A DNA stretch of 35,524 nucleotides from positions 1 through 35,524 of the forward strand of contig JAJDOF010000086.1 in assembly GCA_022340305.1 (NCBI GenBank), given 5' to 3'. The notes beneath the pieces were generated by a model, which saw nothing but the letters and a program-made list of their open reading frames with translations, did no database searches and was not told the origin of the DNA. This document shows, piece by piece, positions 31,514 to 35,524 of this stretch. Both the position numbers and the translations under genes were made by a program. This DNA is from Gammaproteobacteria bacterium. GTDB taxonomy: Bacteria; Pseudomonadota; Gammaproteobacteria; GCA-001735895. Position 1 is the stretch's first letter; every line of letters begins with the position of its first letter.

Positions 31514-32842
31514 ATGGAACCACCCTTGTCAAAGCTTGCTCTACTATTCACCGGGTTTCTGGTCACGCTCTCCTGGTGGCAAACCTCATCCGCCGAAGAT
31601 CTACTCAGGGTTTACCAGCTCGCCCTCGAAAACGATGCCGAATTAATGATTGCCGAATCAAACTACCTGGCGGCAATCCAGGCACTGCCGCTGGCCAGGT
31701 CGGGAAACAAGCCGCAGGTATTCTTCAATGCGGACGGCCGTATCACCGAATCGGATAACTCGAATACCGGCACCAACAGTTCCGACAATATCGGCTATGC
31801 TGTTAACCTGACGCAGTCGCTTTACAACACCGTGACCGATGGCGATATCAACATCGCCGAGGCCAACACCAGGGCCGAAAAGGCGCGCCTGAATGCAGCA
31901 CGTCAATCGCTGATACTGCGCGTTTCACAAACTTATTTCAGTATTCTCGCGGCCGGGGACAACGCTGAATTTGCCTACGCCGAGCGCAATGCCATAGCGC
32001 GGCAGCTCGAAGAAGCACAGAAGCGTTTCGAAGTCGGGCTCATCGCCATCACCGACGTGCACGAGGCCCAGGCCAGTTTCGACAACGCAGAGGCCCAGGT
32101 TATTCTCGCCGAAAACATACTTGAAAACTCGTTCCAGTCCCTGGTGGTGCTCACTGCCGACACCTCGATCAGGAACCTGGATCCGCTTGGCGAAGACCTC
32201 AAGCTGGTGCTGCCCGACCCCGCCACCATACAGGCCTGGGTGACCCTGGCACTGAACAACAATCTCGATCTGCGCGCCGCGCAGGAAAGCCTCAATGCGG
32301 CACGTTATGACCGCGACAAGAACTACCGTAACCGCAATCCCACCGTCGATCTCTTCGCAAGTTACCAGGGCAGGGATAGCAACGATGACCTGCTGGGTGA
32401 TTCGCAGCAGGATGATTTGTCTGTCGGCATCTCATTGGAAATCCCGTTGTACAAGGGGGGCCGCATCTCCGCCGAACGCGCCCAGTCCGCATCGAGATTG
32501 CTCGCGGCTCAAAACACCGCTCTGTTGCAAACCCGGCTCGCGGCCCAGCAATCGCGCACCGCTTTTCTCGACGTGGTTTCGGGCATCAGCCAGGTGAAGG
32601 CGCTCGAGCAGGCATTTGAATCCAGCAAAATAGCACTCGAGGCAACCCAGGCAGGGTTCGAAGTCGGCACGCGAACTTCTGTCGACGTACTGATCTCGCT
32701 GCGCGAAACCTATCGTACGCAGCGCGATTTCGCCAGTGCACGTTACCAGTACGTACTGAACAAGCTACGCCTGAAACAGGCGGCTGGCATCCTGCGTGAT
32801 GAAGACTTGATCGATGCCAATGATTCTCTAGTCAAGCGGTAG
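31514..32842 (+). CDS. tolC: TolC-family outer-membrane channel protein
   Basis: A 442-residue outer-membrane efflux protein with two OEP repeats. The signal peptide is about residues 1-27 (LALLFTGFLVTLSWWQTSSA, then EDLLRVYQLALENDAEL, the canonical TolC mature start). Repeat 1 includes QSLYNTVTDGDINIAEA, and repeat 2 EIPLYKGGRISAERAQ. Long helical stretches such as RNAIARQLEEAQKRFEVGL and SLRETYRTQRDFASARYQYV build the periplasmic tunnel. It works as a trimer with inner-membrane pumps or type I secretion systems encoded elsewhere. lpxL begins 3 bp after the stop. Confidence 0.92.
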   Translation: MEPPLSKLALLFTGFLVTLSWWQTSSAEDLLRVYQLALENDAELMIAESNYLAAIQALPLARSGNKPQVFFNADGRITESDNSNTGTNSSDNIGYAVNLTQSLYNTVTDGDINIAEANTRAEKARLNAARQSLILRVSQTYFSILAAGDNAEFAYAERNAIARQLEEAQKRFEVGLIAITDVHEAQASFDNAEAQVILAENILENSFQSLVVLTADTSIRNLDPLGEDLKLVLPDPATIQAWVTLALNNNLDLRAAQESLNAARYDRDKNYRNRNPTVDLFASYQGRDSNDDLLGDSQQDDLSVGISLEIPLYKGGRISAERAQSASRLLAAQNTALLQTRLAAQQSRTAFLDVVSGISQVKALEQAFESSKIALEATQAGFEVGTRTSVDVLISLRETYRTQRDFASARYQYVLNKLRLKQAAGILRDEDLIDANDSLVKR

Positions 32843-32845
32843 GCG

Positions 32846-33775
32846 ATGGGCGAGCAAAGCTCCGTACTATTTAAAGCGAGCGATTACCTACACCCTAGAT
32901 ACTGGCCGATGTGGTGCATTTTCGCCAGCCTGCGCCTGGTGTCGCTGTTGCCCTATCGCGCCGCGCTGGGGGTCGGTCGGCTACTCGGACAGCTGCTTCT
33001 TCTTATCTCCGGATCCCGTCAGCAGGTCATCGATACCAACCTGGCACGCTGCTTCCCGGAAAAGTCCAACGACGAAAGAAATCACATCAAGTTCGAATGC
33101 TATCGCAACATGGGTATTTCGCTGATCGAAATGGCGATGTGCTGGTGGTGGAGTGACGACAAACTGCGTCCACTGGTCGAAATCGAGGGGCGCGAACACC
33201 TTGACGCGGTGCTGGAAAGTGGTCGTGGCGCGATCCTGTTGACGGGGCACTATACCAGCCTCGAAATCGGTGGCCGCCTGTTGACCCTGTTCATGCCTTT
33301 GCAGGGTATGTATCGCACCCAGCGCAACCTCATGTTCGACAGTTATCTCTACACGCGCCGACACAGTTACCTGGTCGATATCGTGTCACGCAAAAGTACC
33401 CGCCAGTTGATGAAGGGTATTCGCAAACAGATCCCGACCTGGTACGCCCCCGACCAGGATTTCAAGCGCGAGCGGAACGTATTCGCGCCATTCATGGGTG
33501 TCGCCACGGCAACAATTTCGGCGAGTTCGCGCATGGCGCAGGCGACCAACGCGGCAATGCTGCCGTACTACCCCGAGCGCAAGCAGGACGGCACCGGGTA
33601 TATCCTGCACATCGGCGCCCCGCTCGAAGACTTTCCAAGCGGCGACGAAATCGCCGATGCCAGCGCCATCAATCGGTCGATTGAAACCTGGGTACGCGAA
33701 TTTCCCGAAAATTACATGTGGATACATCAGCGCTTCAAGACCCGCCCACCGGGTGAGGCGCCTTTTTATCCATGA
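32846..33775 (+). CDS. lpxL: Lipid A biosynthesis acyltransferase (LpxL/HtrB family)
   Basis: An inner-membrane late acyltransferase of 309 residues that adds a secondary acyl chain to Kdo2-lipid IVA. The catalytic HX4E is LLTGHYTSLEIGG (His135, Glu140). Other family blocks are GMYRTQRNLMFD, WYAPDQDF and ENYMWIHQRFKTRPPGE, the last diagnostic for LpxL/M/P. It has an N-terminal hydrophobic anchor (about 24-55). The chain specificity (laurate, palmitoleate or other) cannot be read. It lies between tolC and waaA in the same direction; waaA provides the Kdo groups that LpxL needs. Confidence 0.92.
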   Translation: MGEQSSVLFKASDYLHPRYWPMWCIFASLRLVSLLPYRAALGVGRLLGQLLLLISGSRQQVIDTNLARCFPEKSNDERNHIKFECYRNMGISLIEMAMCWWWSDDKLRPLVEIEGREHLDAVLESGRGAILLTGHYTSLEIGGRLLTLFMPLQGMYRTQRNLMFDSYLYTRRHSYLVDIVSRKSTRQLMKGIRKQIPTWYAPDQDFKRERNVFAPFMGVATATISASSRMAQATNAAMLPYYPERKQDGTGYILHIGAPLEDFPSGDEIADASAINRSIETWVREFPENYMWIHQRFKTRPPGEAPFYP

Positions 33776-33806: not shown

Positions 33807-35036
33807 ATGACTGCCACTGCCCCGGGATTGGCCTATCGCCTGCTGGCTCTGTCGCTCTACCTGTTCTGGCTGGCGCACGCACGGCAACATGGACGCAAGC
33901 ACGCACTCCGCCGCTACCTCAAACTGCGCATGGCGCGAGACACTGCGGATCATGAATCCCGCATCTGGGTACACGCCGCATCCGTCGGCGAAGTTCGTGC
34001 CGTAGCCCCGTTGGTACAGGCGCTAATGGAGAGCGGCGAAAGGATCCTGTTTACCAGTTTTACCGCCACCGGCTACCGGGCGATTCAACGCGAGTTTGCC
34101 GATTCGGTGCGCATTGCCGTCATTCCCATCGATTGTTACTGGCACTGCCGGCAATTTTACACGCGCCATAACATCAAGCTCGGCGTGATCATGGAAACCG
34201 AACTCTGGCCCGAGTTACTCTACCAGGCCCGTCGACAGGATATCGACCTGCTTCTGGTCAACGCGCGCCTGTCGAAAAAATCCCTGCAGTCCAATAAGTT
34301 CGTGCGCGGGTTGTTAACCGACACCCTGGCATACTTCGCGCAGATTCTGGTCCGTGGTGGTGTTGATCTCGAGGCGTTTGAGAGCCTCGACGCAAACCTC
34401 GAACAGGTTCGCATTCTCGGCAACCTGAAAGCCGCTCCGCAGGCGCCGGCACCCTCGGCGCGCCTGGTCGATCGCGATTATTTACTGCTGGCCTCCAGTC
34501 ATACCGGCGAAGAGCGCGACTTCCTGGCCGCGCGCCCCGCCGCCCTGCAATCCATGCTGATGGTGATCGCTCCGCGCCATCCCACGCGCAGCAAAAGTAT
34601 CCAGGCCGATATCGATAGCCTCGGAATGAATTACGCGGTGCGCAGCAAGGCACAACCAGTGACGCTGGAAACCGAAGTTTACCTGGCCGACACCCTGGGA
34701 GAACTGGGGTCGCTAATGGCTCACGCGCGGATAGTCATCATGGGGGGTTCCTTTGACGATACCGGCGGACATAACCTCATCGAACCGGCGAGCATCGGTT
34801 GCGCAATTATCACCGGACCTTCCGACAGCAATATCAGTGCCGATATCGAAATGCTCGGTATCGACCAGGGCGTGCTTCAGGTCAAATCGATCGATGCCTG
34901 CTGGAGCGCGGTCACCACATTGCTGGCGCAGCCTGAACGCGCGCGTGCCCTGGCGCTGGAGGCAAAATCCCGGCTGGCGCGCCAGCCTGACATCCTGCGC
35001 CAATATCTGCAGGTGCTGCAAACCTATCTCGATTAA
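33807..35036 (+). CDS. waaA: Kdo transferase WaaA
   Basis: A GT30 enzyme of 409 residues that adds Kdo to lipid IVA from CMP-Kdo. One N-terminal hydrophobic anchor (about 8-23) is followed by WVHAASVGEVRA with the catalytic Glu62, then ILFTSFTATGY and GVIMETELWPELL. The C-terminal domain has the CMP-Kdo site around VIMGGSFDDTGGHNLIEPAS. All match the family. I chose the ATG at 33807; the same frame is open back into lpxL but those residues are not conserved. lpxL ends 31 bp upstream. The insertion element begins soon after the stop. Confidence 0.93.
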   Translation: MTATAPGLAYRLLALSLYLFWLAHARQHGRKHALRRYLKLRMARDTADHESRIWVHAASVGEVRAVAPLVQALMESGERILFTSFTATGYRAIQREFADSVRIAVIPIDCYWHCRQFYTRHNIKLGVIMETELWPELLYQARRQDIDLLLVNARLSKKSLQSNKFVRGLLTDTLAYFAQILVRGGVDLEAFESLDANLEQVRILGNLKAAPQAPAPSARLVDRDYLLLASSHTGEERDFLAARPAALQSMLMVIAPRHPTRSKSIQADIDSLGMNYAVRSKAQPVTLETEVYLADTLGELGSLMAHARIVIMGGSFDDTGGHNLIEPASIGCAIITGPSDSNISADIEMLGIDQGVLQVKSIDACWSAVTTLLAQPERARALALEAKSRLARQPDILRQYLQVLQTYLD

Positions 35037-35169
35037 TTAAGCCGCAATCGTCCCTCTATATTCACTCCATACGGTCCATACAGGGACACACGTATATGTA
35101 CACCTCTCTTCTTGCAAGCATTGATTGGTGGGTGGCAACAGGTCAATTGCGTACGTATATTCGGCCTTT

Positions 35170-35330
35170 GAGTTGAGCAGATGTGGTGCTCTGGCCCTAA
35201 TGGGAACCGCGCCTCTGGAGCTCATCACTTTCGCGGGATTGTCATCCCTTGTGTGTCCTCAGCTTCGCCAGAGGCCGGTGTAACCTGTTAATCCATTCTC
35301 ATTCAATGTCTCGCACTAGTGTGGTGGGTA
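35170..35330 (-). ncRNA. Candidate guide (bridge/seek) RNA of the IS1111-type element
   Basis: Downstream of the transposase stop the minus strand folds readily. An 8-bp pair GCCTCTGG/CCAGAGGC joins 35211-35218 with 35268-35275. Inside it is a 5-bp GGGAT/ATCCC hairpin with a 4-nt loop (35235-35248). The minus strand also contains CATTAGGGCCAGAGCACC, a pattern I associate with IS1111-type ends. IS110-family elements encode a non-coding RNA that pairs with target and donor DNA, and in the IS1111 subgroup it lies on this side. The limits given are approximate. Confidence 0.5.
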
Positions 35331-35344
35331 AACCGGTTTTTCGT

Positions 35345-35524
35345 TCAGGGCCGATACTCGCTCTGGTGATACGACATCGCCCAGATGATGCGCGCCAGTT
35401 TGTTGGCCACCGCGACCGCGGCGACCTGCTTGCCGCGCCGCTCGATGAGCTGCCGGGCCCAGCGAGATAGCCGGTCGTCACCGCGGTGCGCATAGCGAAT
35501 GACGGACCAGGCCCCCTGGACCAA
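35345..35524 (-). CDS. IS110/IS1111-family transposase, C-terminal fragment
   Basis: The last 59 codons of a gene running off the right edge, TGA at 35345-35347. The sequence LVQGAWSVIRYAHRGDDRLS, then RWARQLIERRGKQVAAVAVA and NKLARIIWAMSYHQSEYRP, matches the C-terminal helical end of the Transposase_20 (IS110/IS1111) domain. Members combine an N-terminal RuvC-like DEDD fold with this Transposase_20 domain holding the catalytic Ser. The DEDD domain and the catalytic Ser lie outside the window, so activity cannot be judged. Frame and stop are clean in the visible part. Confidence 0.82.
   Translation of the reverse strand: MVQGAWSVIRYAHRGDDRLSRWARQLIERRGKQVAAVAVANKLARIIWAMSYHQSEYRP

Follow-up and report, generated by a model that had tools for sequence, protein, structure and literature searches.

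The closest described systems to the locus reported here are the IS1111 elements ISEc11, ISPa11, ISKpn4 and ISPst6, for which a seekRNA has been described (Siddiquee et al. 2024, PMC11187229). According to that study, such elements possess a non-coding region downstream of the transposase gene and subterminal inverted repeats, and their right end extends 3 bp beyond the subterminal repeat. Within the IS1111 seekRNA the match to the top strand is located 5' of the match to the bottom strand, and the two share part of the target; the same study states that the IS110 and IS1111 families carry these matches in opposite order. Durrant et al. 2024 (PMC11208160) report a predicted bridge RNA for 93.0% of the IS1111 elements, mostly within the right end, and describe how IS110 elements (IS621) recognize target and donor by two loops. 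IS621 and ISPpu10 are known to insert into REP sequences from works cited in PMC11187229.

Here we investigated a stretch of gammaproteobacterial DNA of 35,524 bp (the window), whose terminal part carries the right end of an IS1111-group element. It is very likely that the 3' non-coding region of this element encodes a bridge/seek RNA directing insertion into a REP-like motif. The element is of the seekRNA/bridge RNA kind known since 2024, an ordinary though unusually readable example that holds no surprise for the specialist. It shares with the IS1111 seekRNA elements, as documented in PMC11187229, the long non-coding region downstream of tnp, an 11-bp subterminal repeat, the 3-bp right extension, an RNA in which the bottom-strand match follows the top-strand match in the 3' direction, and the overlap of both in the target. 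It differs from them in its target motif, in a donor loop that is also backed by family statistics, and in being known from the right half of its anatomy only, with the left end missing. The comparison with the bridge RNA of IS621 (PMC11208160) reveals the same two internal loops, one for the target and one for the donor, whereas the RNA of the IS110 group is mostly located in the left end. Insertion into dispersed extragenic repeats would be a common trait with IS621 and ISPpu10, but the motif is about GAAAG-YG-TSTGTCCC in our case, where a REP-transposase-like gene lies between one pair of its copies. Judged by literature listings on IS1111/IS110 seekRNA, bridge RNA and REP target sites, no published work on this very element was found. 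Its relevance lies in the fact that sequence alone sufficed to read the guide loops of a hitherto uncharacterised IS1111 element well enough to predict a target motif, several copies of which then turned up in the genome.

Anatomy of the element right end behind waaA

The window represents an entire contig (C4), the last base of which (35524) falls within the mobile element. The right end of the element occupies positions 35093..35524 on the minus strand, and the contig ends inside it. Its neighbor is waaA for the KDO transferase (33807..35036, plus strand; PF04413, E 7.2e-47; stop codon TAA at 35034-35036), whose 3' end converges on the element. Judged by eye, the ORFs upstream of waaA (31514-33775) may code for an outer-membrane channel of the TolC type and for a lipid A acyltransferase. 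The original prediction of about 300 bp of non-coding DNA with nested inverted repeats proved accurate: the two stop codons of waaA and the transposase gene are separated by 308 bp, composed of 56 bp of host flank (35037-35092) and 252 bp of the element (35093-35344), and the latter portion constitutes the long non-coding region downstream of tnp that is typical for IS1111.

The boundary at position 35093 was set on three grounds, namely, the limit of identity with a second copy of the element, the position of the subterminal repeat and the rule of a 3-bp extension. The second copy is located on contig C39; it is identical to the window from 35093 up to 35230, the point at which C39 breaks off, and the bases directly beyond 35093 differ. 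Both copies have the same right end, which sits in GGGACAGAC on C39, within GGGACAGACA and 69 bp downstream of another gene's stop codon. The right terminal extension of 3 bp (ATA, 35093..35095, minus strand) follows the length rule given in PMC11187229 and adjoins the right subterminal inverted repeat GAGGTGTACAT (35096..35106, minus strand). Subterminal inverted repeats, usually of 11-13 bp, with extensions of 7 bp on the left and 3 bp on the right define the IS1111 group, and the close relatives L048 (Shewanella aquimarina), L050 (a gammaproteobacterial MAG) and L053 (Shewanella sp.) carry GAGGTGTCCAT on the right and the matching repeat ATGGACACCTC on the left. The stretch originally singled out starts at 35100 and thereby 7 bp inside the right end as placed here; the rest of it lies within the element. 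The DNA abutting the right end, GGGACACACG (35083..35092, plus strand; CGTGTGTCCC in element orientation), represents the right half of the occupied target and recurs at the C39 copy as GGGACA[C/G]AC.

The only coding sequence of the element in the window is the transposase C-terminus of 59 aa plus stop (35345..35524, minus strand; frame 35524-35348, stop 35347-35345). It matches positions 288-342 of the 343 positions of NCBIfam NF033542 "IS110 family RNA-guided transposase" (E 3.5e-14), and the score of 52.7 bits is below the whole-protein cut-off of 140, as expected of a fragment. The identity to the C-termini of the elements in L048-L054 is 62-78% (71% for L050), and the assignment of an IS1111-type 3' end to this stretch has thus been confirmed. 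A Pfam search with the 59-aa fragment returned sub-threshold, unrelated matches only. The domain criterion of the IS1111 group is a DEDD N-terminal domain together with PF02371, of which the window can hold no more than the last 59 aa; the transposases of L048, L050, L053 and L054 contain both PF01548 and PF02371. Plasmid records yielded 36 hits with short transposase-coding matches for the DNA of the region (10-11% of the query among the matches listed), 1665 hits for the 59 aa, every one below 60% identity, and eight hits for the relative L048, none of them covering 80%. A scan of viral_contigs retrieved no relative, and the DNA of the region produced short matches only (27-50 bases) in 95 relative genomes outside of its own.

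Neither a search with the N-terminal half of L050 nor a degenerate repeat pattern located the left end of the element, the remaining transposase or the left target half in the assembly, and recovery of the whole element, as envisaged in the original prediction, did not succeed. That the right end alone has been assembled at both sites, with no left end or N-terminal half, would be in agreement with a dead remnant, i.e. with an RNA region that is the fossil of an IS1111 element no longer moving. However, no difference separates the two copies within 35093-35230, and each is cut off by the end of its contig, as happens with near-identical repeats that collapse during assembly; moreover, neither the fold nor the guides nor the 59-aa frame is disrupted. 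We regard the fossil as unlikely, and the copy in the window is presumably still mobile.

A covarying RNA fold in the 3' non-coding region

A structured RNA was predicted on the minus strand between 35293 and 35131, comprising two guide loops at the location where the original prediction had placed a guide RNA. The minus strand of the region folds with a z-score of -2.69 and none of 100 shuffled sequences was as stable, in line with the folding check that had been proposed, and the plus strand reached a z-score of -1.70 with five of 100 shuffles as stable. The fold consists of a closing stem and two arms, each interrupted by an internal loop; the first arm is also topped by a hairpin. Both inverted repeats that had been noticed initially are exact and find their place in the first arm: GCCTCTGG/CCAGAGGC (35268-35275/35211-35218) forms its stem, and GGGAT/ATCCC (35244-35248/35235-35239; strand orders as in the RNA) its apical hairpin.

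The structural conservation of this fold is documented by its covariation. A MAFFT alignment of seven 3' regions (the window and six relatives), built without any model, contained 37 consensus pairs, and double changes occur in at least one sequence at 13 of these. In the target-loop stem the 5' strand (35268..35275, minus strand) covaries with the 3' strand (35211..35218, minus strand); all eight pairs exhibit changes on both sides and 95.5% of the cells are paired. The hairpin between the two target guides (35235..35248, minus strand; GGGA/TCCC, 4 pairs) is paired in 97.9% of the cells. Both helices hence covary in related elements, and altogether seven covarying helices, the hairpin being one of them, are united in a single fold. 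Two sequences were treated separately: L052, which is cut at a contig end, is included in alignment A1 and was dropped from A2, and L055 was kept out of the alignment on account of an in-frame stop codon and a 3' region that is unlike the others by eye.

The seven aligned sequences (the window and six relatives) served to build the covariance model R1. It recognizes the RNA core of 163 positions in the window (35131..35293, minus strand) with 143.4 bits as the sole match at E up to 1, the window being among the seven training sequences. The wider search set encompassed the window, L004, L005 and L012-L108 (L001-L003, L006-L011, L109-L126 and L127-L145 were left out) and provided 94 matches at E up to 1 in 88 of the 100 sources, seven of the 94 being the model's own training sequences. 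In the 82 distinct model-aligned rows (A3), whose fitting to the model structure leans in the structure's favour, 88.0% of the cells pair compared to 63.6% after shuffling, 691 double-change cells are opposed to 214 in shuffled alignments, and the covariation score amounts to 0.542 versus 0.048-0.069 for slid versions. Covariation is accordingly present in the seven initial sequences as well as in the 94 wider matches. Among the 95 relative genomes, 17 contain R1 matches, the window's own included and judged by the RNA-model match alone.

Rfam 15 contained no match for positions 34900-35524 of the window at E up to 5 and none for L048, L050 and L053 at gathering scores; with matches in 88 of 100 sources, R1 could aid the annotation of such RNAs, for which Rfam 15 was without a match where tried. 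The RNA is presumably transcribed from the minus strand. A consensus scan of 34900-35524 for sigma-70-like promoters detected none on the RNA strand and one on the other strand.

Guide loops, putative donor loops and the adjoining DNA

The first arm of the RNA contains two target guides. Guide 1, GAGGACACACAA (35249..35260, minus strand), is complementary to the right target half: eight contiguous bases pair with GTGTGTCC within CGTGTGTCCC, the DNA abutting the right end. Compared with 69 other guides this match attains rank 0.05, and the closest relatives score weakly for guide 1 (ranks 0.40 for L048, 0.30 for L049, 0.23 for L051, 0.12 for L054 and 0.92 for L053). Guide 2, GCGAAAGTGATG (35223..35234, minus strand), is read as the left target half plus core according to the rule that has been established on other elements, and the left half at this locus is a prediction from that rule.

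The general validity of the guide-target rule emerges from the whole family. The 94 matches comprise 70 distinct guide pairs, 67 of them with enough flanking DNA on the right and 61 on the left, and for the permutation tests similar guides were clustered and each cluster was represented by one element (42 clusters, of which 39 were usable on the right and 36 on the left). Guide 1 reached rank 0.05 or better against the right flank in 25 of the 67 elements, and guide 2, read as identity, did so against the left region in 19 of 61, the window not being among them. Own versus swapped guides resulted in z-scores of 8.7 for guide 1 (n=39 clusters), rising to 10.0 when only the stretch 31-75 nt behind the RNA is considered, and of 9.3 for guide 2 (n=36 clusters, the window itself standing outside the left-side tests). 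The observed value was reached in 0 of 20,000 permutations in each test, and the wrong-strand controls gave z-scores of 0.1 (guide 1) and 1.3 (guide 2). Several IS1111 elements of other bacteria in A3, among them L036, L085 and L105, exhibit guide 1 scores of at least 10 against the right flank and represent good material for a target survey.

These results also bear on another explanation, according to which the inverted repeats are a mere transcription terminator for waaA or the transposase gene and the guide match arose by chance. The hairpin indeed coincides with a terminator-like site on the plus strand (35235-35248; two sites in the region versus 0.4 expected from shuffles), and it may double as a terminator besides its role in the RNA. 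Yet the same hairpin is one of the seven covarying helices of a fold that recurs in 88 of 100 sources, and the z-scores of 8.7-10.0 for own versus swapped guides contrast with wrong-strand controls near zero, which renders a terminator with a fortuitous match extremely improbable. The guide RNA remains our preferred reading.

The second arm harbors two putative donor loops. For donor loop A, GTTCCCATTAG (35197..35207, minus strand), a pairing with the complementary left-end terminus is proposed, with a family z-score of 3.4 and a wrong-strand value of -0.7. Donor loop B, GAATATACGTA (35152..35162, minus strand), reads as the right-end terminus plus core, with a score of 8 in the window; its family z-score is 8.5, yet the wrong-strand control of 2.7 is not null. 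The donor arm points in the same direction as the guides, albeit less cleanly.

In our preferred reading, the closing stem of the RNA supports two arms, and each arm has its own internal loop. Guide 1 of the first arm would pair with the top strand of the right target half and guide 2 would read the left half, both running into a 2-bp core, and the second arm would read the element's own ends. Together with the DEDD transposase, which is expected to bind it, the RNA would direct insertion into a dispersed REP-like motif of about GAAAG-[T/C]G-T[G/C]TGTCCC, one copy of which would have been located 46 bp behind waaA.

A predicted REP-like target motif and other IS1111-type elements

The target was read from the guides and the known right flanks ahead of the genomic search as about AAAGTG^TGTGTCCC, corresponding to GGGACA[CG]ACACTTT on the other strand. 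The pattern searched was GGGACASACAYTWTC with one mismatch allowed, where S represents the two observed flanks and Y and W loosen the predicted part. This loosened pattern retrieved 13 matches in the 4.35-Mb assembly and none in the reversed control; the flanks had already revealed the GGGACA[C/G]AC half, and the true prediction is restricted to the CTTT half from guide 2. Four of the 13 matches contain the written 14-mer exactly (C64, C41:4003 and two on C128), and three more differ at the core base only (C41:2708, C80:281 and C80:2519; TCGAAAGCGTGTGTCCC). One site on C128 (L145:1898) reads GGGACACACGTATATGT, i.e. the letters of the C4 junction, without the element's repeat behind it, and is possibly the decayed right end of another element.

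The recurrence of GGGACA[C/G]AC in both right-end flanks might also be taken to mean that this stretch belongs to the element and not to the target, and the match of guide 1 would then be internal to the element. This is very improbable, given that the flanks differ inside the motif (CACACG on C4, CAGACA on C39) whereas the element is identical from 35093 inward, that the motif is present elsewhere in the genome, and that the differing flanks of other elements match their own guides. We accordingly continue to treat the shared flank as target DNA.

An ORF of 322 aa on C41 (L135:1501-2810) lies between two inverted copies of the motif; it weakly matches NF047646, the REP-associated tyrosine transposase (48.1 bits against a cut-off of 80, E 1.1e-12), and has no Pfam match. 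Because this inverted pair flanks a REP-transposase-like ORF, we infer that the target is a dispersed REP-like repeat, and the name itself has the same conditional status. A search with PF01797 identified five loci, one of which (L189) contains GGGACAGAC.

The original prediction had expected the guide to match the target next to waaA. The match as such has been verified by the eight contiguous bases of guide 1; the address, however, is not specific for waaA and appears to be the dispersed REP-like motif. The second copy on C39 in the same motif and the motif pair flanking the REP-transposase-like gene suggest that the insertion most likely followed from a repeat formerly present behind waaA and not from waaA itself. 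A waaA match was detected in 30 of the 31 genomes of the genus, the window's own included. The comparison with the same locus devoid of the element, which had been put forward as a check, provided no empty site: GGGACA[C/G]AC or its complement was found in 0 of 26 relative waaA loci (L195-L220, some with little downstream DNA; L221-L223 were left out of the scan). Two of the 26 loci, L195 and L197, show a looser GGGGACA/TGTCCCC match.

The genome harbors additional elements of the same type. Contig ends of C80, C141 and C64 (L132:1-420, L130:1-620 and L133:1400-1671) represent left ends of a different IS1111-type element with the repeat ATGGACGCTCC and the N-terminus MSEHNLISVDLAKN. They were considered as the missing left end of the window's element and rejected, as ATGGACGCTCC does not match GAGGTGTACAT. 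The N-termini on C80 and C141 were likewise dismissed with 39% and 42% identity to L050 compared to 71% for the C-terminus in the window, a strong argument and not a proof, considering that different parts of the protein are compared. The search with the N-terminal half of L050 had recovered six places in total (C92, C124, C52, C141, C114 and C80; 39-51% identity), which were assigned to other IS1111-type elements.

The left ends on C80, C141 and C64 abut the motif, with GGAAAGCGTG, GGGGAAGTGTG and GAAAAGTGTC, respectively, directly before TGATSAG. If the 7-bp left extension applies, the reading of these junctions implies an insertion point for the second element some 4 bp away from that of the element in the window. 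The assembly yielded no RNA for the second element, R1 matching at C4, C39, C92 and C124 only. Whether two IS1111-type lineages have converged on the same REP-like motif about 4 bp apart, with right ends on C4 and C39 and left ends on C64, C80 and C141, is in our judgment evenly balanced. Such a convergence, if true, would make repeats of the REP-transposase type a common insertion site that guide RNAs evolve to recognize. The R1 matches C92:1992-2157 and C124:10753-10918 belong to two further IS1111-type elements with identical guides (GCGAGTGTCCGC / GTCAAAGCAATA), which are apparently aimed at a different sequence.
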